A stretch of DNA of 40,245 nt from a virus. Shown piece by piece: positions 8,541-40,245 of this stretch. The first letter of the stretch is position 1; every line of letters begins with the position of its first letter. Position numbers and translations under genes: made by a program. The notes beneath the pieces were generated by a model. The model ran no database searches and was not told the DNA's origin. It saw only the letters and a list, made by a program, of their open reading frames with translations. The stretch lies in the IMG/VR virus record IMGVR_UViG_3300047496_000140, positions 1 to 40,245 of that record; one strand, 5' to 3'.

Positions 8541-8967
8541 GAGGTGCTCCACTGAGGAGGCGGCACTCGCTGCGCAGCATCCCCAGAATAATGGCGTCGT
8601 CGCCGTTCTCGAAGTACTCGCGGACCCGACCCTCATCTACGAATCCGAGGTGACGCACAAAGCGCAGCGAGGCGGCATTGCCCTCGGCCACGGTTGCGGT
8701 CACGCGGTGGACTCTAAGCTGATCGAAGGGGTAGCGAAAGGCCTCCCGCAGATAGTGCAGCGTGAGGGATCGGGGGTTGAGCTGGGCGTGGTGCATGTAC
8801 ACGTCCCGCTCGGTGTAATTGCAGTAGACGGTGCCGGCGGTGATATACCCGCGGCGGTCAAAGAGGCCGATGGCCGTATAGGGGGAGTCCCCCAGGGTCG
8901 CCATCGGGATCTTGGAGAACACCCAAGTGGCAATCTGCTCGTGCTGGTCACAGATGATGCGCTTCAC
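8347..8967 (-). CDS. GNAT-family N-acetyltransferase-like protein
   Basis: Start GTG 8967 overlaps the stop of the connector gene (GTGA). Of 206 residues, about 1-138 form a GNAT-like fold: beta strands at 30-50, a helix at 68-82, then the typical strand-helix pair RVHRVTATVAEGN / AASLRFVRHLGF (85-109), where a basic residue before the Leu-Gly-Phe is characteristic of this superfamily. GNAT enzymes transfer acyl groups from acyl-CoA to amines. GNAT genes occur next to tail genes in many podovirus-like genomes, with unknown substrate. Residues 143-206 are Arg/Pro-rich and overlap the following gene out of frame, so this tail may be non-functional read-on. Confidence 0.7.
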   Translation of the reverse strand: MKRIICDQHEQIATWVFSKIPMATLGDSPYTAIGLFDRRGYITAGTVYCNYTERDVYMHHAQLNPRSLTLHYLREAFRYPFDQLRVHRVTATVAEGNAASLRFVRHLGFVDEGRVREYFENGDDAIILGMLRSECRLLSGAPHGKHDRRPAATSSIADNLGERPFNERGRRVPPTDRRGSSTLILGAPGQQPPGNDRSPAAAGGRR

Positions 8968-10643
8968 CCGACACCGTAAAAGAGCCCGCCGGGCTCGGTC
9001 AGGAAGTTGGAGGCCATCCACTTGCAGGTGAGCAGACTTGCGCTCATCTGCATGTTGACCGTGCCCCAATACCCCGCCCCGCTGATCCCGAGCCAGGGCT
9101 TGCTGATGAGGGTGGCATCGCCCCAGAAGGTCGTATTCCAGAGCGAGGTGTTCCAGGGGGCCGACCCACCGTTACTGATTGGCACCGTGCCAGTGGGTGC
9201 CGTGACGTCAAAGTCGACGTTGAAGGTGAGCGACACCGACATGGTGCCCGAGAGCTGGAATATCGGCTGAAACATCGTCCAGCGCTTGAGCTTCCCCTCC
9301 TGGCCGAACTGGCTGAAGGCAGGCTTTACCTGGAAGGTGATCGCGCTGCCGTTGTCAGCCGTGCCCACGTCGCACTGGTAGGTCGCCCCGGCTGTGCCGT
9401 GGTAGAGCTTGTCCTGCCAGATCTCGTAGCAGAAGGCGTTCCAGCTCGAGGCGATGAGCCCGAAGGTCGACCAGCCGCCAGAGAGCGTGTTCTGCACCCA
9501 GGCGAAACTTGCCGAGAGGGTATTGCTGGTCGGGTTATTGATGATCAGCTTGTTGCCGATGGGGTAGAGCTGCACCTGCCAGCCCTGGGCGGCCTTGTAC
9601 ACCTCAATCTGGGTGTTGATGCCGTAGCGGATCTTGTCCGTGATCGCCTGGCGGGTCTGGGAGCGGTCGGTGAGCATCGCCTGGCTGATGAGGATGCCCC
9701 CATCGGTGGTGAGCATCAGGGCATCGGCGCCTATTTTCTGCCAGGCCTTGCGCCCCGGGGCGAGCAGATGCCCCATGGTGAAGTGCGCGGCGATCGACCA
9801 GGTGCTCACCTGGGCGGGGTCATAGCCCTGGTAAACCACCACCTCGCCCTCGCTCGAGCAGAAGGCCATGAAGTCATTCAGGCCCGCCGCGTTGTCCACG
9901 CTCACCGTGATCATGGCAACGAGGTAGCCACCGAGCTTGAAGTCCGCCCCAATGTTGAGGTTGGTGAGCGCCCCGCCCACCTGGAGTTGCGGCAGGTACC
10001 AGATCTGGAAGCTGCCCTGCTGCAGGAACCATAGGCGCTGCTTGTAGACTGCGACCTGGGAGAGGGTCTTAAGGCCTGCGGTCGAGCCGCCGCCGGGCCC
10101 GTTGGTGAGCTGGAAGGTGCCCCCGGAGGTGTTGATGGCCGCCCAGTTGGCGCCATCGAACAACAGCGGCAGATCCATCCCCGAGGCGTTCAGGGCGTAG
10201 AGAAACTCCCCCGAGCCGCTGCCGAACTGGTTGAAGTCGAAGTAAGCGCTGTGGAGCTGCTGCACCGTATTGCCGGCGCCTCCGACCACGGGCACCGTGA
10301 CAGCGCCGCCGCCGGCATTGTCCACCCGGTAGATCGAATAAACCCCGCCGTTGCTCACCGCCTGGAATAGCTGCGGGGTGACCGTCTGCACCCCGGTATA
10401 GCCCATGAGGGTCTCGCCGTTGCCGGTGAAGGTGGCAAGCAACTGCTTGCCGCGGCGGAACTCCACCCACGAGGGCTGGCAGAACCAGTTGTCGAGGATG
10501 ACCGCATCGGTCTCGGCCATCTCGGCCAGGGCATCCCGGGCATTGAGGCCGCCGATGGGTGGCGGGATCGGGTGCGGGACGGCGCGGTTGGCGAAGCGCT
10601 CCTGATCCCTGCGCTGCGCCCGCTGCTCGCGGGTGATGATCAC
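8964..10643 (-). CDS. Tail hub / DNA-stabilisation protein (beta-propeller type)
   Basis: This 559-residue protein starts at GTG 10643, overlapping the TGA of the connector gene (GTGA). It has many Trp/Gly/Tyr-bounded beta strands, such as VYKQRLWFLQQGSFQIWYL around residue 205, a pattern seen in the tail-nozzle/plug proteins of P22-like and related short-tailed phages. No N-terminal signal or catalytic motif. Coming right after a P22 gp4-like adaptor, it most likely closes the portal channel and forms the tail tube. Confidence 0.7.
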   Translation of the reverse strand: MIITREQRAQRRDQERFANRAVPHPIPPPIGGLNARDALAEMAETDAVILDNWFCQPSWVEFRRGKQLLATFTGNGETLMGYTGVQTVTPQLFQAVSNGGVYSIYRVDNAGGGAVTVPVVGGAGNTVQQLHSAYFDFNQFGSGSGEFLYALNASGMDLPLLFDGANWAAINTSGGTFQLTNGPGGGSTAGLKTLSQVAVYKQRLWFLQQGSFQIWYLPQLQVGGALTNLNIGADFKLGGYLVAMITVSVDNAAGLNDFMAFCSSEGEVVVYQGYDPAQVSTWSIAAHFTMGHLLAPGRKAWQKIGADALMLTTDGGILISQAMLTDRSQTRQAITDKIRYGINTQIEVYKAAQGWQVQLYPIGNKLIINNPTSNTLSASFAWVQNTLSGGWSTFGLIASSWNAFCYEIWQDKLYHGTAGATYQCDVGTADNGSAITFQVKPAFSQFGQEGKLKRWTMFQPIFQLSGTMSVSLTFNVDFDVTAPTGTVPISNGGSAPWNTSLWNTTFWGDATLISKPWLGISGAGYWGTVNMQMSASLLTCKWMASNFLTEPGGLFYGVG

Positions 10644-11635
10644 GAGCCAAACCCAGTGTCCGGGACTTGCTGCGAATTGAGCAGTCGCAGCGAGCCGGCG
10701 CGCGCGTTCAAGGGGAGATTGCGGGCAATGGTCTCGCGGCCCTGGCGCTGCTGGTAGGCCTTCTCGTACTCATCGAACTCCTCCGCATAGGCGTTGCCGA
10801 TCGACTTCAGCATCCGCCATTTGAGGGCGAGCACGAGCAAGTCCTCCGGGAAGGTGGGGCACACGTCGGTATCGAGCGCAAAGCCCACCTGGCTGGGAAC
10901 CGTCGGGGTGGCAGTCGGTGCCACCCAGAATTGCGAGCAGTACTCCATGACGATCAGATCGGTCACAGGGGCAATGTTGCCGGTCTGGATGAAGGGCGAG
11001 GGGTTGAGGTAGATCATGCCCTGCATCAGCCGATAGCGGATGCGCGGACCCACCGGGCTGATGCCGGACTTGAGCACCTGCCACTCCTGGGCGTTCACAG
11101 GTCCTAGGAGCTGCCAGCGGAAATTGCGGTCCCAGTCGGTGCTTGGGATGAAGTAATTGAGGTCCGAGGGCAGCGGGTAAGCCTCCTGGCCGAAGGCAAG
11201 CGCGGTGTCGGTGGCGGTGGTGAAGCTCGAGCCATTCAGGGTGTTGGCGTTCTGGTTCATCGTCACGGTGCCAGCGCCGATGTTCACCGAGACCACAGCC
11301 GAGTCCGGCAGGCAGTACCGGCTTGATACCTGCCAGGTCGGCTGCACCGCCGACAAGCCGGTGCCCGAGCCTGTGAATACAACCCCCGTGATGACGGGCG
11401 AGCCATAGGTGAAGGTGCCGGTAAAGGGCCCCTGACCTGCGAGGTTGAACAGGAATTGCCGGCGCAGGTATTGCCAGTAATCGGCCGCCCCGGGCGCATC
11501 CCGCAGGAATAGCCCGGAGCGGTTGACCTGGGCGAGGGCCTTGGTCACGTTGACGTCGGCGTTGCCCACCACAGTGGGGGGCACGGGAAGACCGATCTCC
11601 CCGAAAGCCTGCTGCACGATCGTCAGTAGTGACAT
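10640..11635 (-). CDS. Head-tail adaptor / tail tubular protein A-like
   Basis: This 331-residue protein starts at ATG 11635 (MSLLTIVQQAFGEIGLPVPPTVVG). That opening, followed by helices with a YWQYLRRQF element (about 53-61), a beta-rich middle and a C-terminal helix pair ending in a basic AYQQRQGRETIAR stretch, is characteristic of the adaptor family (P22 gp4 / T7 gp11 type) that docks below the portal. Its order relative to the propeller-type tail protein supports the call. It is separated from the preceding gene by only 9 bases. Confidence 0.7.
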   Translation of the reverse strand: MSLLTIVQQAFGEIGLPVPPTVVGNADVNVTKALAQVNRSGLFLRDAPGAADYWQYLRRQFLFNLAGQGPFTGTFTYGSPVITGVVFTGSGTGLSAVQPTWQVSSRYCLPDSAVVSVNIGAGTVTMNQNANTLNGSSFTTATDTALAFGQEAYPLPSDLNYFIPSTDWDRNFRWQLLGPVNAQEWQVLKSGISPVGPRIRYRLMQGMIYLNPSPFIQTGNIAPVTDLIVMEYCSQFWVAPTATPTVPSQVGFALDTDVCPTFPEDLLVLALKWRMLKSIGNAYAEEFDEYEKAYQQRQGRETIARNLPLNARAGSLRLLNSQQVPDTGFGS

Positions 11636-11644
11636 TCCGGCTCC

Positions 11645-12526
11645 TTACGCGGCGTCCGCGTCCTCCTCGTCATCCTCATCATCGGCCTGGGCCTTGGTCA
11701 CGCCCGGGACCTCCTTCGCTGCGTTCTTGGCACGGCCCTTATTGGCGTTCGCTCGCGACATGGAGCGAAGCTGGGGGGCGGTGCCGGCGTGGGCGACGGG
11801 GGCGCGGTCCGTGCTCTGCACGGCGCCTGCGGGCGCAGCACCTCGGTCGGCCTGCATCCGCACGATCGAGGCCTGAAGGTCCGCCACCTGCTTTGACAGC
11901 ATCGAGACCTGCTCTTCGGCCTTGCTGGCGCGCTCCTGCTCGCGGCTGAGGATGCGGGTCTTCTGCCTCTCATCGAGTGCTGCCTTGGCAAGGTCGCGGT
12001 ACTTGATGGCACCCATGATGTTCTGGGCGTTGACGTCCGAGAGCGCGGCGAGCTGCTGCACCGTATGCACGTTCTGGGCCTTGAGGCTCTGGGCATAGGT
12101 GCGCGAGACCACGCCCCACTCCTCGATCGGCCAGCCATCGGCGGCCGTGGTGGACTTCTTCAGGAAGCGCTGCCAGGCCTTGGCGTACTTGATCGGCTCG
12201 GGCACGTCCCCGTTCTCGCACGTCTCCTGGATCTCCCAGATCGTGTGCACCTCGCCTGACTCGTCATCGATCGCCATCTCGTAGGCGATGCCGGTGGTCG
12301 GGTGGTCCCAGACGGTCTTGGTGTTCCCCGGGGCGATCATGGTGGTCATGATGCGGTTGCGGTAGACCGGGGAGCCTGCCTGCTTGGACAGGTACTCCAT
12401 GAACTCCGGCTCCTCGCGGAAGCTCACGATGAAGCCCGCATCATCGCCATAGTCGACAGCGCTTGAGCCGCCGCCCATGTCATCGCGCAGCTTGCGCGGG
12501 GGTGCGAAAGTGGTTGGTTCAGCCAT
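11645..12526 (-). CDS. Virion-associated protein with acidic tail
   Basis: This 293-residue protein starts at ATG 12526 and overlaps the end of the three-domain enzyme gene by 8 bp. Residues 1-110 are a mixed region with several Asp/Glu; 110-200 are helical; 185-230 have heptad spacing typical of a coiled coil. The last 20 residues are almost all Asp/Glu/Ala, a highly acidic C-terminus. No known domain was recognised. Its place between head and adaptor genes suggests a head-associated protein. Confidence 0.55.
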   Translation of the reverse strand: MAEPTTFAPPRKLRDDMGGGSSAVDYGDDAGFIVSFREEPEFMEYLSKQAGSPVYRNRIMTTMIAPGNTKTVWDHPTTGIAYEMAIDDESGEVHTIWEIQETCENGDVPEPIKYAKAWQRFLKKSTTAADGWPIEEWGVVSRTYAQSLKAQNVHTVQQLAALSDVNAQNIMGAIKYRDLAKAALDERQKTRILSREQERASKAEEQVSMLSKQVADLQASIVRMQADRGAAPAGAVQSTDRAPVAHAGTAPQLRSMSRANANKGRAKNAAKEVPGVTKAQADDEDDEEDADAA

Positions 12527-14654
12527 CGAAGTGCCCTCTCTTGGTGAAAATCACGTCCCGGTGCCGGTGGCCCGAGACCTCGTATCCGCGTGCTGCGAGC
12601 CACGCAACGGTGTCCGCATCGGTATACCCGTACTGCTCGCCCAGGCCCTTGAGCTCAAGCACGATGACGGGTGAATTGGTGGCAAGGGTGCGCTCGGCGC
12701 CCATCAGCGCGAGCTGCTCGAACCCTTCCACATCCAGGATGAGGAGGTCGAGCGCGGTGAGCCGGAGGCTGTCGATCTTCATCACCTGCACGTCGCCGGC
12801 TTCTAAGGTCACCCGGGTCGCCCCGCAGTTGCCGATCTGGCGCTGGATGCCGTAGCCGGTCACCTCCTGGTCCCCGAGCGCAAAGGGCCAGGCGTTGATG
12901 TTCGCAGTCTTGCCGATGTTGCGTACGAGGCAGGCCCAGTTATCTGGATCAGGCTCAAAGGTGCACACGCTCTCAAAGCGCTTGGCGAGCTCGAGCGCCC
13001 ATGCCCCGACGTTGCCGCCGGCCTGGATCACGGTGCGGTGCTTGCGGGCAAGGTCCGCATAGGCGATGCAGTCAGGGAGCGTGCCGAGCACGGCCGGCCG
13101 GGCCTCCTCATCGAGGGTCGGCCACCACAGGCCTTTGTGCTGGGTGTAGGGCTCGGGCGGGTGCTCGATCATCCCGCCCGCGATCCAGGGGATGAGACCG
13201 TCGCCTAGCACGTTGATCGCGCAGCCCTGGTTGAGGAGCAGCGCCGATACCTGCTTGAAATCCTCGCTCTGCTGGATCATCCATGGGGCGCACTTGAAGG
13301 CGCGCCCCCTACAGATCACATCGATGACCCGCTCGCCATCGTTGAGCGACTGGGCATAGGCGTGGTGGTCGCCGTCCTGGTAGCAGGAGTCAAAGCCGAC
13401 CAGATAAAGCTGCCGGAAGCCCATTGCGTAGGCGAGGACCATGGTCTTTATGCCGATGGTCGTGCCGCCGCCGATGAGCGGGGTGTCCTGGGGCAGGAGC
13501 TCAGGCGAGCCATCGGTCAGGGGGTGCCACATCACAACGGTGGCCGCAGCATCGCGCAGCGCTTTCTCCATGAGGCGCGGGTGCACCATGGAGGCATAGA
13601 TTTTCTGCCCGCCGGGCTGATAGGTCTCAATCATCGCCTCCCGGGCATCGATGACCAGGTGCGCCTCGGGGGTGATACCGTGGCCGCGCAGGTAGCCGTC
13701 GGTCGCATTGGTGGCAAGGATCACCATGCCCTGCCGCTGGAGATCAGCGATCAGGGGGATGAAGCCTGCAAGCGATGGGCCGCCGCCCACGATCACCGCA
13801 GTGCGGCCGTTGTCCTCGCTCTCCACCTCGAAGTGCTGCTCGGCAGGCACCATCCCGGTGTTGATGCGGATGTGCTGGAGAATGGTCTCCTGGGCGACGT
13901 TCGGCACCATCACGAGCTCCATCGAGGAGCCCCCGCCGACCTTCCACACCTCCGGCACCCAGCCATGGCTGACCTCGTGCGGGCGAGGGTTGCCGTGGAA
14001 AAAGACGATGGCCGTGCCCTTGGGCACCTCAGCGGTGCACGCAGCCTTATAGGACTGGAGCATGCCCGGGTAGTGGTCCTGGAGCCGGTCCGGCGGCCAT
14101 ACCCGGTTGGGGTCCACCTGCATCTCAGCCGGCAGCCACTTGCCCCAGACATACTCGAGCATCTGCTGGTCGCCACCGGGGAAGCGCTGGGCGAGCGGCT
14201 CGGTTGCCAGGGGGGACTCGGCCGAGCAGAAACAGCGCCAGATCGCACCGATTAGCTTGGTACCGGTCTCAAAGGCCATGACGGAGGACTGCAGGCCGCC
14301 GGGGCGGTAGACGTCGCGCAGGATGCCGAAGGCGCCGCAGTACTCGGCTATCGCATCGAGCGGGCCTGTGATGCAGGTATCGAGATCCAGATACAGCACC
14401 CGCTCGCCGGCCTCAAAGGTGTCCGGGTGGAATAACCACATCTTGGCCCACCAGGACCTGGGCACATCAGGGGGAAGCGCGCGCGCCTCGACCCCTGCCA
14501 TGCCCTTGTAACGCTCGACGCTATCAGTGAGGACGACGAAGCGGCCCTTGAAGCCGTTCGCGAGGTTGCGGCGCACCATGTCGTGCAGGCGCTCGACGTA
14601 GTCAGCCCCATGCCCCAGGTAATCGCCCACCTCAACTGTCACCACATTCAGCAT
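12519..14654 (-). CDS. Three-domain glycosyltransferase / Maf-like (DUF115) / FkbM methyltransferase fusion
   Basis: Start ATG 14654 is preferred: it has GGAG five bases upstream and follows a hairpin, whereas a longer reading begins inside the upstream gene with Arg/His/Pro-rich sequence. The protein has 711 residues. Residues 1-245 resemble a GT-A glycosyltransferase with a DxD motif (D90-L91-D92) and a FFHGNPRPHEV stretch at 218-228. Residues 255-495 match the DUF115/Maf family: VGGGPSL at 289-295, a GGGTTIGIK loop at 395-403 and the LVGFDS strand. Residues 540-706 match FkbM-type methyltransferases: QAGGNVG (544-550), FEPDP (566-570) and LDVEGFE (640-646). It probably transfers a sugar and methylates it, perhaps on a virion or host glycan; the substrate is unknown. 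Confidence 0.8.
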   Translation of the reverse strand: MLNVVTVEVGDYLGHGADYVERLHDMVRRNLANGFKGRFVVLTDSVERYKGMAGVEARALPPDVPRSWWAKMWLFHPDTFEAGERVLYLDLDTCITGPLDAIAEYCGAFGILRDVYRPGGLQSSVMAFETGTKLIGAIWRCFCSAESPLATEPLAQRFPGGDQQMLEYVWGKWLPAEMQVDPNRVWPPDRLQDHYPGMLQSYKAACTAEVPKGTAIVFFHGNPRPHEVSHGWVPEVWKVGGGSSMELVMVPNVAQETILQHIRINTGMVPAEQHFEVESEDNGRTAVIVGGGPSLAGFIPLIADLQRQGMVILATNATDGYLRGHGITPEAHLVIDAREAMIETYQPGGQKIYASMVHPRLMEKALRDAAATVVMWHPLTDGSPELLPQDTPLIGGGTTIGIKTMVLAYAMGFRQLYLVGFDSCYQDGDHHAYAQSLNDGERVIDVICRGRAFKCAPWMIQQSEDFKQVSALLLNQGCAINVLGDGLIPWIAGGMIEHPPEPYTQHKGLWWPTLDEEARPAVLGTLPDCIAYADLARKHRTVIQAGGNVGAWALELAKRFESVCTFEPDPDNWACLVRNIGKTANINAWPFALGDQEVTGYGIQRQIGNCGATRVTLEAGDVQVMKIDSLRLTALDLLILDVEGFEQLALMGAERTLATNSPVIVLELKGLGEQYGYTDADTVAWLAARGYEVSGHRHRDVIFTKRGHFDG

Positions 14655-14698: not shown

Positions 14699-15379
14699 TT
14701 AGAAGCCCTCGAGGACCGGACGTCCGTTGAGGTAGATCAACACGCATGAGGCGGTCGTGGTGACCGTCGCGGTGTTGGCCTGACGGCTGCCCAGGATCTG
14801 CCCACCCGTGGAGGCGGTGAAGTAGACCCGGCCCGCGGTGCCGGAGGCGTAAACGCCCACGGTTCCGGGGGCTACCTGGGTGGAAGCCGGCTTGAGGACC
14901 TGGCACACACCACCGCACTGGAACCAGGCGTACTGGACCAGCGTGGTGTTCGAGGTGATGCCCGCCCCGCTGTTGTACACCGTGGAGGCCACGCAGACGG
15001 CGATCGGGACGCCGGTCTTCTGCGAGGTGCCCTTGGCGGGAAGCGCGACCACCTGGTACTGGTTCGTGCCACTGAGGGTGTAGGAGACCACCGTCCCCAG
15101 CGGGATTGCCGTTGAAGTCGGCACCGCCAGATAGATGAACTCACCAGCCCCAAGCGTCGGTTCCACAGCGCGGATGACCTGCCCCAGGAAGGGCGAGAAC
15201 ACCGGCCGCGGCTCGACGCTCGTGGCGACGTTCTGGAGACCGGTGCTTGCCGGCCCGGGCCCTGGCGGGTCCGTGCTGACAAAGCCGATATCCAGGATGC
15301 CCATGAGCGGATCGCTCTGCGACCAGTTATAGGTCGGTGCGGCAGGGACCTGCGCCGCAAGGAAAGTTACCTTAGCCAT
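14699..15379 (-). CDS. Probable capsid decoration / head protein
   Basis: This 226-residue protein starts at ATG 15379 with AAGGAA upstream. It is rich in Val, Thr, Gly and Ala with many predicted beta strands, including a VVSYTLSG strand at about 97-104 and short Gly turns throughout. It has no charged helices and only a few Cys (around 130-160). Its place immediately after the major capsid gene, with a short leader of its own, fits a decoration or cement protein. A minor head role is possible. Confidence 0.6.
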   Translation of the reverse strand: MAKVTFLAAQVPAAPTYNWSQSDPLMGILDIGFVSTDPPGPGPASTGLQNVATSVEPRPVFSPFLGQVIRAVEPTLGAGEFIYLAVPTSTAIPLGTVVSYTLSGTNQYQVVALPAKGTSQKTGVPIAVCVASTVYNSGAGITSNTTLVQYAWFQCGGVCQVLKPASTQVAPGTVGVYASGTAGRVYFTASTGGQILGSRQANTATVTTTASCVLIYLNGRPVLEGF

Positions 15380-15417: not shown

Positions 15418-16401
15418 TTACGCCAGCAGAGCACCCTGCAGGAAGCGGTTGGAGGTGGTCAGGTTACCCGCGAAGCCGATCAGCTTCACCATGGCGTCCT
15501 GGTTCACAGCGAACCGCTCATCACCCAGGGGGGCGAAGTTGCGATCGGCATGCGGCCGGAAAAACAGGTACTTGGTGTTCAGGAAGTACATCGAGTTGAC
15601 GGGAGCCCCGCCACCGAAGCCACCATCGAGCACCACGTCGCAGTTCATGTACTTGAGGGTCTGGAAGCCCAGCTCCGCAAGCTCATCGTTCTGCACCCGC
15701 TGGATTGCCTGCATGCTCTCCAGGTAGTACCGATAGAAGTTGTTGTCGGCCACCACCAGGTCCGGGGCATCGGCGCCGCGAACGAGCTGGAGGTAAACAC
15801 GGTTCATGTAGGTCTGAATCGTGGCCGTGGAGACCGCCTGGCCGCCGTTGGTGACGCCTGAGAAGGCGACGTTGCGCCAGAAGCTCCACACCGAAGGATC
15901 GATGCCACCCACGATGCCCGTGGTCGGGGTCGAGCTGATCAGGAGCTGGATGCCACCGATCTGCCGGCCGCCGTCCGCGGTGCCGTTGGAGTACACGTCC
16001 AGGGCGACGTTGTTGGTGAGGGTCTGCTCCGCGTTCTCGATCCGACCCTCGAGGAGGTCGATAATCGCTTCCTCGCCGCTGTTCTGCAGCATCTCGAGGC
16101 CGGAGATCGAGACCGCTACGGCTGCCTGCGCATAGTTGTACTCAGCCCCGGTGAAGACGTCGGAGGGGGCGATGTTCAGGGTCTCGTACCCGGAATAACG
16201 CTTGTAGGTGCCGTTCTCCTGGTAGTTGAGCTCCTGGACGATCGTGCGGCCACCGCTCACCGGCTTCACCTTGCCCTTCGCTCGCAGGCGGTAGAGCAAG
16301 GCGTTGTTCTTGGTGACGTTGTCCGCGAGTTTGCCGGTGCGCGAGCGCAGCGTGGTCGCTACGATTTCGGGCACCGTGCTTGACGGATTGGGAAGTGCCA
16401 T
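15418..16401 (-). CDS. Major capsid protein
   Basis: This 327-residue protein starts at ATG 16401 (MALPNPSSTVPEI), with AAGGAACC upstream. An early extended arm (about 45-75: SGGRTIVQELNY) is followed by a long helix with Glu/Leu (about 95-130) and a beta-rich core with RPHADRNFAPLG near 280-291, consistent with an HK97-like capsid of the podovirus-like type. It lies after scaffold and portal genes and before a second head protein, the canonical order. No protease gene is seen nearby, consistent with a scaffold-driven head. Confidence 0.85.
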   Translation of the reverse strand: MALPNPSSTVPEIVATTLRSRTGKLADNVTKNNALLYRLRAKGKVKPVSGGRTIVQELNYQENGTYKRYSGYETLNIAPSDVFTGAEYNYAQAAVAVSISGLEMLQNSGEEAIIDLLEGRIENAEQTLTNNVALDVYSNGTADGGRQIGGIQLLISSTPTTGIVGGIDPSVWSFWRNVAFSGVTNGGQAVSTATIQTYMNRVYLQLVRGADAPDLVVADNNFYRYYLESMQAIQRVQNDELAELGFQTLKYMNCDVVLDGGFGGGAPVNSMYFLNTKYLFFRPHADRNFAPLGDERFAVNQDAMVKLIGFAGNLTTSNRFLQGALLA

Positions 16402-17645: not shown

Positions 17646-18056
17646 CTACCCTCTCTTTTCCAGAATGTGCCGGGGCACCTTGGCCCGCAGCTCGTTGCGA
17701 ATCGTGGCGCGCAGCTCCTGGCGCTGGTCGCGGGTCATCTTGGTGCCGCGCATCGTCCGGGTGTCCTTGGGGAGGTCGGTGCCGACCTCGCGCAGCTTGT
17801 TGCGCTTCAGGTACTCCCGATGCTCACGGCGTGAGGTGATGGGCTTCCCGGCCATGTCGCCCGCGGTGGCGATGTAGGGGGCAAGATCCGCCTGCCCCAT
17901 GGGGGCGGTGAGGATCACCCGCTTGGCGGCGATCTGGCTGGCCGCAGCGCGCTGGGCCTGGCAGGGGCAGATGGCCGGATCGTTCCGGTCAGCTACGCGC
18001 CGCACCAGCTCCTGCACGAAGCCGCACTCCCCGCACTCGTACTCGTAGGTGGGCAT
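17646..18056 (-). CDS. FmdB-like zinc-ribbon protein
   Basis: This 136-residue protein starts at ATG 18056, overlapping the portal stop (ATGA). The N-terminus MPTYEYECGECG holds Cys8 and Cys11, and a CPC pair lies at 30-32, the layout of the FmdB/CxxC small zinc-ribbon group; the second pair has one residue fewer than usual. The rest is basic and helical with an RREHREYLKRNKLRE stretch and a Lys/Arg-rich end. The ribbon may bind nucleic acid or metal. A role in head assembly or a regulatory role at the switch to capsid production are both possible; neither is shown. Confidence 0.65.
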   Translation of the reverse strand: MPTYEYECGECGFVQELVRRVADRNDPAICPCQAQRAAASQIAAKRVILTAPMGQADLAPYIATAGDMAGKPITSRREHREYLKRNKLREVGTDLPKDTRTMRGTKMTRDQRQELRATIRNELRAKVPRHILEKRG

Positions 18057-20722
18057 CAGGCGCGCGCCTCCGCCTTGGCCTTCTTCGGCTTCGCCTGCTG
18101 GACCGCGACCGCCTGCTTGCCCTTCTCCCGGGTGAGCCCGAGCTGCGAGCGGTCCGACTGCACGCCCATCATCCGCTCATGGGCCATCTGCCGGGATTGC
18201 TCGCGGGCGCCGAGATTGGCCTTATGGGTCTCAAGCTGCATATCGGCGTGATGGTCGAACTGGGCCTTCTGGGCCTCAAAGTGCATTTTCTGGGTTTCCA
18301 TCGCCTGATCGGTGTGGGCCTTGAGCTGCGCCTTGAACTGCTCCACGTGCATGTCGAGCTGGGCCTTTTGCTGGTCCTGCTGCGCCTGGGCCTGCTGCTG
18401 GGCAAGATTGCGCTTGGTCTCAGCGTCGGTTTCGGCCTGGCGGGCCTGCATCTCGATCTTGGCCTTGCCCTGGGCGATGGCGAGCGCGGTCTGCTGCTCC
18501 ATCTGGGCTTTAGCCGCCTCGGGGTCGGGCTTGGGCTGCTTCGCGGCCTTCTGCAGAGCATCCATCGCATCATCGAAGGTCTGCTCGATGGAGCGGGCGC
18601 TGGTGAAGGCGCGCACGGTCCACATGAAGACCTCGCACAGCATCGGCACAAGCTCAGGGGCCATCTGGCCTGCCTGCTCGAGCTGGGTGAGAAAGCCGGT
18701 CGCCTTCTCCAGGAAGTCCAGGCGGCTTTGCTTCTCGGCCTCCTCATCCATGCGCACGGTCGAGTCGGTCTCGATATCGAGGCGGAACTCGCGCACCACC
18801 GGATTGCGCAACAGGCCCTCAACCTCCTCCCAGGTCGGCTGGCTCATGAGCTCGAGCTGCTGGGGTGAGACTGGAGCTGATCCCGGCGCAGGCGTACCTG
18901 CCATGCCGGGGGCGGCCGGGTTCATGCCAGCCGCGCCAGGACCTCCCGGAGGTGGCGGAGGGCCTGCTGCAGGCTGGGGAGGCGCGGGCGGGGCCGCTGC
19001 CGGAGGAGCTCCGGGTGCAGTGCCCGGCGGGCCTGGAGGATGTGGGGGTGCTGCCCCGGGAGGGCCTCCACCACCAGGTGGCGCACCGGGAGGGGCCTGC
19101 TGGGCCTGCGCTTGCTGCAGGGCTGCGAGCATGGCCTGGTGCTGCTGCTGGAGCTGGATCTGCTGCTTCTCGGCGTTGGTGAGGAGCTTGACACCGCTGA
19201 TCCCCTTCAAGGTCTCAATGGAGTACTTGGCAATCATCTCCCCGATGATGTGCACCTCGTCACGGCAGAAGCGCTGGACCTCCTGCTGGGCGTCCTGGAT
19301 GCGCAGCACCGAGAACTGGCCTTTGAGCTGCTGCGCGGTGGCGGTCTCGTTGGGGTCCGAGAGCCCGCGCACAATGTCGCTGATGCCGGTGAGCTGGTAG
19401 ATATCGTCGATGAGCTGCTGGCGCTGGTCTTTCAGGAACCCGAGCGTGGTGGCGATCTCCTCCATCGGCAGGAGCTCGTAGACCCCGGCAAGGCCGCCCT
19501 TTTCCTTGTGCGCCGCCCAGCCCTCCACCGGTATGAGCTGGTTCTCCACGCCCTCGGACAGGAGCCGATCGAGGCCCTCGGCCGAGGTATCCCGCACGCC
19601 TGCCACCTTCAGGGCCTTGGTGATCGAGGTAATGCGGCTGGACAGATCGTCCACCTCGTTGGCCTGGTCCTGGTAGTGCGCGAAATTAGGCACCGGGATC
19701 AGGTCATCGTTGGCGAGGTTCGCGTAGATCGGCCTGGGGCAGGGGAAGAAGTCCTTGAGCTCGCAGGGATCTGGCCGGGTGTCGAGCACGAAGCGGAAAT
19801 TCTTGATAACCCAGATCACCTCGCGCTTGTGCTTGTCCCAGATCTCATAGACCACCGCCTTTTTGCGGCTCATCGGGACCTTGGCATCGGTGAGGGTGCG
19901 CGGGGACCAGTCGAGCGGGATCTGCTTGATCTCGGCCTTCGTCAGCATGCCCTTGCCGCAGAAGCGCTCCATGAGCTCCTCGCGGTCGAGGTAGACCTTG
20001 CGCCACACCGCGCGCACCTCATCCCAGGTGCGGGCCCAGGTGTGGCCGAAGTCCTCGGTTGCTACGTAGTCGACCAGGGTCTCCTCGTAGGTGAGCTCGT
20101 CTTCATCCGCCTCGCTGTCGGCATCGTTGGTGACCTGGACACCAGAGGCCGCAAGCTCATCCTGGGAGGCGTGGCCTTCGTCCCCTGGCTCACTGGTTGA
20201 GCCACCGAGCTGCGGGCCGGTCGCCATGCCATCGCTGCCCGGGCGCGGGTTGGCCGGGTCATCCTCATCGGGCATCGGCTTGGCCGGCTTGTGCTCGATG
20301 TGGGGCACGTAGCGCACCCACACGGTGCCCCGGCCAGAGAGCTCCTCATCGAGCACCACCTGACGGTGGGTGAGCATGGTCGGGTTGACCACATCCAGGG
20401 TGTACTGAATCGAGCGCTCGAGGATCTCGCTGGTCACCCGTCCAATGGGGTCCTTGTCCTTGTAGCGCCGCTCGACGGATGCCTTGGGGTTGCGGGCATA
20501 TAGCGCCGGCATGCGGATCTGGGTGTTGGCCCATAGGACGTTGAAGCGGGTGATCGCCTCCTCACGCGGGGTGCGAATGTCCTTGTACCGCTTCACGATC
20601 TTTCGGACCCGGCGCAGCCACTTGTCGGTCATGCGCTCGTAGTCATCGATCTCACGGCCCCAGAATTCGACCTCCTTATCGAGGCCGAGGCCTTGAGCTT
20701 TCTTGGGTCCGTCGGTTGCCAT
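18056..20722 (-). CDS. Portal protein
   Basis: This 888-residue protein starts at ATG 20722, overlapping the stop of a 50-residue gene. Residues 1-500 have the podovirus portal pattern: an N-terminal helix with KEVEFWGREIDDYERMT, a WANTQIRMPALYARNP segment (about 63-78), a DFFPCPRPIYAN motif (about 325) and long alpha-helices with acidic patches. Residues about 540-620 form a Pro/Gly-rich linker, and about 715-860 a very long Gln/Ala/Lys-rich coiled coil ending in a basic patch. The coil is longer than in typical portals and may be the barrel reaching into the head. Its place between terminase and scaffold supports the call. Confidence 0.8.
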   Translation of the reverse strand: MATDGPKKAQGLGLDKEVEFWGREIDDYERMTDKWLRRVRKIVKRYKDIRTPREEAITRFNVLWANTQIRMPALYARNPKASVERRYKDKDPIGRVTSEILERSIQYTLDVVNPTMLTHRQVVLDEELSGRGTVWVRYVPHIEHKPAKPMPDEDDPANPRPGSDGMATGPQLGGSTSEPGDEGHASQDELAASGVQVTNDADSEADEDELTYEETLVDYVATEDFGHTWARTWDEVRAVWRKVYLDREELMERFCGKGMLTKAEIKQIPLDWSPRTLTDAKVPMSRKKAVVYEIWDKHKREVIWVIKNFRFVLDTRPDPCELKDFFPCPRPIYANLANDDLIPVPNFAHYQDQANEVDDLSSRITSITKALKVAGVRDTSAEGLDRLLSEGVENQLIPVEGWAAHKEKGGLAGVYELLPMEEIATTLGFLKDQRQQLIDDIYQLTGISDIVRGLSDPNETATAQQLKGQFSVLRIQDAQQEVQRFCRDEVHIIGEMIAKYSIETLKGISGVKLLTNAEKQQIQLQQQHQAMLAALQQAQAQQAPPGAPPGGGGPPGAAPPHPPGPPGTAPGAPPAAAPPAPPQPAAGPPPPPGGPGAAGMNPAAPGMAGTPAPGSAPVSPQQLELMSQPTWEEVEGLLRNPVVREFRLDIETDSTVRMDEEAEKQSRLDFLEKATGFLTQLEQAGQMAPELVPMLCEVFMWTVRAFTSARSIEQTFDDAMDALQKAAKQPKPDPEAAKAQMEQQTALAIAQGKAKIEMQARQAETDAETKRNLAQQQAQAQQDQQKAQLDMHVEQFKAQLKAHTDQAMETQKMHFEAQKAQFDHHADMQLETHKANLGAREQSRQMAHERMMGVQSDRSQLGLTREKGKQAVAVQQAKPKKAKAEARA

Positions 20723-40031: not shown

Positions 40032-40245
40032 TCAACCAAGCAAGGCCCGGACCTGGCCGGCCAGGAGTGTGGGGTAGATCATGACGCATTTGCGCAGCAC
40101 CACGATCTCCTCCGGGGTGAATTCGACTATGTCCCCCTTGGTATGCTTGATGCGGTGCCACAGCTCGTAATTGCGGATTTTCTCGTCATCCGAGAGCGGT
40201 CCACCGCTGGAATTCACAGAGACCGACAGCGCGCGCAGCAGCGCC
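40032..40245 (-). CDS. Small phage protein split by the circle join (C-terminal part)
   Basis: This is the remainder of the 105-residue gene whose start lies at 231; the bases beyond 40118 repeat the start of the window. The segment has a Leu/Arg helix (LWHRIKHTKG), a PEEIVVLRK helix and ends in GQVRALLG. The TGA at 40032 is followed after 13 bases by the start of the XhlA-like gene. An in-window GTG at 40217 should not be taken as the true start. Confidence 0.8.
   Translation of the reverse strand, partial: ALLRALSVSVNSSGGPLSDDEKIRNYELWHRIKHTKGDIVEFTPEEIVVLRKCVMIYPTLLAGQVRALLG
40119..40245. repeat. Terminal direct repeat, right copy (circular overlap)
   Basis: Identical to bases 1-127. Together with the gene reading across the join, it shows the sequence closes on itself, giving a unique length of 40,118 bp. 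Confidence 0.95.

Follow-up and report, generated by a model that had tools for sequence, protein, structure and literature searches.

Which molecule does an enzyme modify when its domains are those of sugar transfer and methylation and its gene lies among the head genes of a phage? The question is raised by a gene at 12519-14654 of IMG/VR virus record IMGVR_UViG_3300047496_000140, whose whole stretch of 40,245 nt is called the window here. The preliminary description of this DNA had proposed three enzyme domains in one 711-residue frame, a glycosyltransferase (GT), a Maf-like/DUF115 domain and an FkbM methyltransferase, and had taken the protein for a single phage enzyme acting on the virion or on a host surface glycan. 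We find that the three-domain observation is real, confirmed by protein families, an AlphaFold2 model and Protein Data Bank (PDB) folds far beyond chance, and we think it probable, with considerable room for doubt, that the enzyme is an exchangeable cassette for cytoplasmic O-glycosylation and methylation of a head protein.

The coordinates proved exact, with the gene on the minus strand. Read from 14654 to 12519, this strand holds one open frame of 711 residues; the plus strand holds several stops. A GGAG ribosome-binding site (14663-14660, 5-nt spacer) precedes the ATG at 14654, which lies 44 bp past the stop of the decoration gene and at the residue where homologues also start, and the gpX gene (12526-11645) overlaps the enzyme stop by 8 bp. 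A longer frame (GTG at 14918, 799 aa) was rejected as the gene start since the GGAG site and the homologue starts favour ATG 14654.

All motifs quoted in the preliminary description are present (DLD 90-92, VGGGPSL from residue 289, GGGTTIGIK from 395, QAGGNVG from 544, FEPDP from 566 and LDVEGFE from 640). The N-terminal domain is matched by the PHROG 1962 glycosyltransferase family (residues 13-238, 1.5e-28), the only family to mark it; the Pfam GT8 profile gave no match to the enzyme at E up to 1. The middle domain matches Pfam MptE-like PF01973 (residues 274-427, 7.8e-20) with 71.8 bits against a curated cut-off of 34.6, and the third matches both Pfam FkbM PF05050 (residues 561-692, 8.7e-9; 36.2 bits, curated cut-off 22.7) and TIGR01444 fkbM_fam (residues 541-668, 8.9e-16; 58.6 bits, cut-off 37.7). 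In a first AlphaFold2 model, built from 10 sequences, the GT and Maf domains were resolved but most of the methyltransferase had a pLDDT of 25-45; it was replaced by one built from 82 sequences, separately encoded FkbM relatives among them, with mean pLDDT 93.4, pTM 0.73 and values below 50 at residues 497-500 only. Structure prediction, the check originally suggested, recovered all three folds in the PDB: the GT domain resembles GlyE 5gvv (GT8-type, 2.9e-8), Skp1 galactosyltransferase 6mw5 (5.9e-8) and glycogenin, the middle domain resembles Maf 5mu5 (7.1e-9), 8sbu (2.7e-6) and the archaeal HPPK 8sd5 (4.9e-6), and the third resembles FkbM 2py6 (8.1e-7).

Free variation of the catalytic residues among homologues, which would have told against the three-domain claim, did not occur, the motifs being near-invariant over 27-64 relatives. 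In the GT domain D90 is kept in 63/63, D92 in 61/63, D162 in 64/64 and H220 in 63/63 relatives, along with GDQ and FHG; in the Maf domain D336 (63/63), H377 (63/63) and H431 (62/63) are conserved, as are GGPS, GGGT and HHAY; and D641, E643, G644 and E646 of the FkbM domain are present in 27/27, with GG.VG, FEPD and LD.EG.E kept. The ratio of nonsynonymous to synonymous substitution is 0.05-0.21 per domain over five pairs of relatives, that is, all three domains are under purifying selection. There is no clear membrane segment: hydropathy over 19 residues peaks at 1.65, where a strand/helix of the Maf Rossmann fold is predicted.

Each domain thus has known counterparts, from which the phage protein differs in its composition. 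With the flagellin glycosyltransferases Maf1 of Aeromonas caviae and 5mu5 of Magnetospirillum it shares the core fold, the GGPS and GxD motifs and solubility, and the target of those enzymes is an abundant self-assembling surface protein, as is likewise proposed here. However, of the full-length flagellin Maf/PseD architecture only the central domain is present, fused to a GT8-like and a methyltransferase domain, the enzyme reaches 14.3 of the 670 bits of the NCBIfam PseD flagellin model, and the phage has neither flagellin nor a CMP-nonulosonate pathway. Streptococcal GlyE (GT8) and the Skp1 alpha-galactosyltransferase 6mw5 have the same GT-A fold with DxD, but their identity to the phage N-terminal domain is 13-17% and the Pfam GT8 profile is unmatched; both of these relatives extend glycans on proteins. 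FkbM-family O-methyltransferases (2py6) agree in fold and S-adenosylmethionine (SAM) motifs, the Pfam and NCBIfam cut-offs being passed, whereas the phage FkbM domain is fused C-terminally to GT-Maf.

A viral scan with the single enzyme sequence found no relatives because it reached only near ones. An alignment query of the enzyme alone gave at least 560 confirmed loci, and the best 80 distinct loci among them were examined; counts of loci in this paragraph refer to these 80. The search for the same fusion in other phages, proposed earlier, was thereby answered in uncultured viruses, with the third domain exchangeable. The order GT-Maf is kept in 79 of the 80 loci, and the architectures are GT-Maf-Methyltransf_24 (30 loci), GT-Maf followed by a separate FkbM (25), GT-Maf-FkbM (7), a separate FkbM ahead of GT-Maf (4), Methyltransf_24-GT-Maf (1) and Maf-FkbM with a separate GT (1), a methyltransferase being absent or not seen in 12. 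GT-Maf is therefore a stable core, and the methyltransferase, FkbM or the unrelated Methyltransf_24, fused or separate, is exchangeable. The position among head and connector genes pointed out in the preliminary description is near-invariant as well: all 80 loci lie between capsid and tail genes, linking the glycosyltransferase to structural genes. Upstream of the enzyme set, 49 loci have a decoration protein and 26 the capsid protein, and the contig ends in 5; downstream, gpX follows in 79 and the contig ends in 1.

When relatives are collected by capsid protein, the stretch between the second head protein and gpX appears as a variable slot, empty in some close relatives. It holds GT-Maf-FkbM in two of these loci (L008, L022), GT-Maf with a C-terminal Methyltransf_24 in five (L007, L009, L018, L046, L050) and Methyltransf_23-Maf in two (L035, L055). 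The capsid protein of L006 is 93% identical to that of the window; this locus has the same GT-Maf core (51-54% identical), and the beginning of its C-terminal part (GVELGVFAG), after which the contig ends, resembles the Methyltransf_24 type. On the capsid-protein tree (n=130) the cassette class (GT-Maf, other Maf or none) changes at least 15 times and the full architecture 27 times; the GT-Maf tree requires no fewer than 10 changes of methyltransferase state.

The slot has other occupants too. In L069 (4375-7198), L071, L078-L080 and L083-L085 it carries a Maf-GT-B-like fusion and, about 0.4 kb further on, a single-domain second Maf. TPR proteins fill it in L034 (7055-8446), L037 (3440-4879) and L042 (7873-9327), those of L034 and L042 with a GT9-like C-terminus; they are a candidate alternative glycosylation cassette replacing GT-Maf. 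A hexapeptide-repeat acyltransferase stands in the slot of L048 (3326-5556) beside a different GT fused to Maf, which suggests acylated glycans. L017 lacks the enzyme; between gpX and the tail gene this relative encodes, at 10662-12494, a tailspike-like protein with a right-handed beta-helix.

If the enzyme acts on the particle, which of its proteins is modified? Covariation was examined in 72 non-redundant loci that have a decoration gene, using 2000 label permutations that ignore phylogeny. For pairs of loci that both carry GT-Maf, the decoration proteins are more similar than capsid and tail similarity predict; for pairs in which just one of the two has it, they are less similar (statistic 0.072; 1/2000 permutations reached this value). 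On the opposite flank gpX does not covary with the enzyme (1876/2000 permutations). The decoration family profile matches Mx8 p49 (2e-42), which carries the annotation major virion structural protein, and this kinship together with the covariation favours the decoration protein as the putative substrate.

The roles that we propose for the domains rest on analogy with Maf1 acting on flagellin. In Aeromonas, Maf1 is needed for the cytoplasmic attachment of pseudaminic acid to Ser/Thr residues of flagellin, with which it makes direct contact (PMC4065374). Similarly, the soluble three-domain enzyme would decorate one of the phage's own head proteins in the cytoplasm of the host, either ahead of assembly or while it proceeds: the Maf domain would recognise the protein and start the glycan by placing its first sugar on Ser/Thr of the neighbouring decoration protein (or of the capsid protein), the GT8-like domain would extend the glycan with a sugar from a host-made UDP-sugar, and the FkbM domain (Methyltransf_24 in relatives) would cap it by O-methylation. 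Fusion of the domains would let the steps proceed in sequence on one substrate, and exchange of the methylation module between phages would place a different glycan on the particle. Substrate, step order, donor sugars, methyl acceptor and any benefit, such as evasion or receptor masking, are here what we infer; donors would come from the host, as no sugar-donor biosynthesis gene is recognisable in the phage genome. The earlier claim that a single phage enzyme acts on the virion is in part supported, by structure, by conservation and by the near-invariant place beside the capsid genes.

Several observations weigh against modification of a head protein. The covariation of decoration protein and enzyme could arise simply from their physical linkage in recombination, and the permutations ignore phylogeny. 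In a group of related loci (L140-L148, for example) the enzyme has no detected decoration homologue next to it, and hence the decoration protein is not a universal target. Its Ser+Thr fraction is 0.210 with the enzyme and 0.153 without, a difference that is clear in the raw values but not significant in phylogenetic pairs (median p 0.125) and has a similar trend in the capsid protein; Ser/Thr enrichment was accordingly dropped as a pointer to the substrate. Moreover, the enzyme is absent from Mx8, BUCT555 and ppBjS10J-1, the cultured phages whose capsids are nearest, and the phage itself lacks a recognisable sugar-donor pathway.

An enzyme of this kind could instead modify a host surface glycan or its precursor, for seroconversion or superinfection exclusion, its place in the head operon being no more than a late-expression site where morons are tolerated. 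Lipopolysaccharide and other glycans are common substrates of FkbM and GT8 enzymes, and the slot is optional and varied in content, down to the TPR/GT9-like proteins of L034 and L042, as in a moron site. Such a target is unlikely nonetheless, because of the head-operon location, a single site beside the capsid genes in all 80 loci, and because the decoration gene covaries with the enzyme and gpX does not. The enzyme has no clear membrane segment, related enzyme sets occur in head operons of unrelated phages (S20 and Shinella prophages), and Maf homologues act on protein (PMC4065374). The target might also be a tail or adsorption protein, such as gpX or the tubular or tailspike proteins downstream, rather than the head. 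The constancy of gpX, which matches that of the upstream neighbour (79/80), speaks for this, but its covariation with the enzyme is absent after accounting for capsid and tail similarity and it is poor in Ser/Thr (mean about 9%), so that we regard a tail target as improbable.

Two further readings concern targets other than surface molecules, and both are set aside because the companion genes that they call for were not found. Some viruses are known to encode glycosyltransferases that attach diverse glycans to DNA (Pyle 2024, as cited in PMC12619734), and the enzyme might glycosylate phage DNA bases as a hypermodification against restriction. DNA is a very unlikely target, however, given that no base-hydroxymethylating or thymidylate-synthase-like gene was seen in the apparently complete genome of about 40 kb (Pfam, and the first 25 of 43 PHROG families listed); the DNA-related Pfam matches are limited to N6/N4 DNA methylase, HNH and Erf-type genes. 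In fold the enzyme resembles glycosyltransferases of proteins and sugars, and the gene sits among structural and not replication genes. The name MptE-like of the Pfam family, and the fold match to HPPK 8sd5, might hint at a pterin pyrophosphokinase or another nucleotide-binding module, making the protein a metabolic fusion. This is hardly credible: the domain is closer to Maf 5mu5 than to HPPK in sequence profile (5.7e-11 vs 1.7e-3) and to Maf 5mu5 in fold (7.1e-9 vs 2.7e-6), its partners in almost every architecture are sugar-enzyme domains, and the frames that were scanned include no recognisable gene for pterin or folate. Glycosylation and methylation of a head protein thus remains our preferred explanation.

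A broader version of it, to which we would give slightly less than even chances, is that the slot is a capsid 'serotype' cassette, in which a Maf-centred, domain-swappable glycan assembly enzyme would be traded together with its decoration-protein substrate and the surface chemistry of the particle would turn over faster than the capsid. Its parts, as tentative as the cassette itself, would be the GT, the Maf domain and an exchangeable methyltransferase, sometimes with a GT-B, an acyltransferase or a second Maf.

Table 1. Coordinates of the enzyme, its domains and the neighbouring structural genes in the window.
Feature	Coordinates	Strand	Evidence
Trifunctional GT8-like / Maf (DUF115, MptE-like) / FkbM methyltransferase, 711 aa	12519..14654	minus	open frame, ribosome-binding site, families, AlphaFold2, folds
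GT-A glycosyltransferase domain, GT8-like, residues 1-240; DxD = D90-L91-D92, GGDQ 160-163, FHGxPRPH 219-226	13935..14654	minus	PHROG 1962, folds
Maf / DUF115 / MptE-like domain, residues 250-495; GGGPSL 290-295, D336-A-R, H377, GGGTTIG 395-401, GFDS 420-423, HHAY 430-433	13170..13907	minus	PF01973, 5mu5 fold and profile
FkbM-type SAM methyltransferase domain, residues 500-706; QAGGNVG 544-550, FEPDP 566-570, LDVEGFE 640-646	12537..13157	minus	PF05050, TIGR01444, 2py6 fold
Second head protein (decoration-like), 226 aa, 21% Ser+Thr; proposed substrate	14699..15379	minus	phrog_29386 virion structural protein 1.2e-9
Major capsid protein; alternative substrate	15418..16401	minus	phrog_9953 major head protein 1.2e-123
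Downstream flank gpX (Mx8 p50-like)	11645..12526	minus	sequence relatives
Tail/tubular protein, closes slot	10640..11635	minus	phrog_6013 tail 1.9e-32
Portal protein	18056..20722	minus	phrog_12082 2.4e-184

The window begins and ends with an exact 127-bp direct repeat (1-127 = 40119-40245), and the record therefore probably represents an entire phage genome, circularly assembled and about 40.1 kb long. Its capsid protein is 49-60% identical to those of Mx8, Mx9, ppBjS10J-1 and BUCT555. The gene at 8964-10643, which follows the tail tubular gene, bears a PHROG label of amidase/lysis; its homologue in MW202489 is annotated as a phage stabilization protein, and the product is probably a tail-completion protein, the PHROG label being misleading.

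How widely is the fusion distributed? Among 50,697 cultured-phage records none covers 80% of the enzyme, and tblastn with the Maf domain alone gave no match to cultured phages at E up to 0.01. In a set of 84,980 prokaryotes, one genome per species, the full fusion occurs once, on a 39 kb contig of a Rhodopila metagenome-assembled genome; the contig bears structural genes of a phage and is possibly a phage sequence that was binned there. Within the collections searched, the fusion is a trait of uncultured phages. Two proteins of uncultured Caudovirales in BFVD, A0A6J5PVH5 (34% identity over about 500 columns) and A0A6J7XC21 (25% over about 360), are alike in length, about 700 aa, and in their MptE-like annotation, but both are uncharacterised, with no function proposed. 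No paper on the fusion or its slot, and no relevant DUF115/MptE-like phage work, was found in the open-licence literature, which is weak evidence of novelty.

Relatives of the separate parts were detected more widely, those of S20 and of phages P1 and P7 by profile only. In S20, separate genes for six enzymes (a sialyltransferase-like Maf relative, GT-D, Methyltransf_23, GT2, FkbM and a phrog_1962 GT) lie downstream of a different (phrog_10) capsid protein. P7 hdmA-D (L004, 1834-4531) and P1 pmgN-Q (L194, 1376-4031) encode two Maf/sialyltransferase-like proteins (phrog_4603, phrog_2111) and a phrog_1962 GT, and annotators named the cluster with hdmB/C/D in P7 head morphogenesis. The Maf-like pair and the GT side by side (HdmB, HdmC, HdmD; PmgO, PmgP, PmgQ) recall the enzyme described here, whereas theirs are separate genes, with no methyltransferase and with an additional Ser/Thr phosphatase gene (Ppp) between the Maf-like and GT genes. 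The hdm/pmg genes are thus a candidate head-glycosylation cluster in a model phage. Lytic growth in the laboratory does not require pmgO, pmgP and pmgQ (PMC10695390), as might be expected, by analogy, of an accessory decoration.

Two other arrangements were met. Shinella prophages (L171, 4433-9596, and L177), which have a culturable host, carry, upstream of the capsid gene, a GT that directly follows the portal gene and then a Methyltransf_24. A Solimonas fluminis genome (L191, 5905-7620) encodes a GT-FkbM fusion of 571 aa without a Maf domain.

Phage virion glycosylation is already known, as are Maf, GT8 and FkbM enzymes. Virion glycosylation has been reported for mycobacteriophages (Freeman 2023, as cited in PMC12691614), and from that citation the likeness lies in phage-encoded glycosyltransferases that modify the particle, experimentally there and as read from genes here; the differences are the Mx8-like capsid lineage, the fused Maf-centred enzyme and the exchangeable methyltransferase. 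Among tailed phages virion glycosylation is known from few systems, and the present family adds a single-protein enzyme found directly in the head operon at no fewer than 560 uncultured-virus loci, with no full-length match in the cultured-phage collection. The enzyme is predicted to be a natural modular link of protein O-glycosylation to sugar methylation. The family predicts methylated glycans on the particles of uncultured phages and gives a candidate function for the long-unexplained hdm/pmg genes of P1 and P7, and glycans on the particle surface could affect stability, adsorption and clearance.

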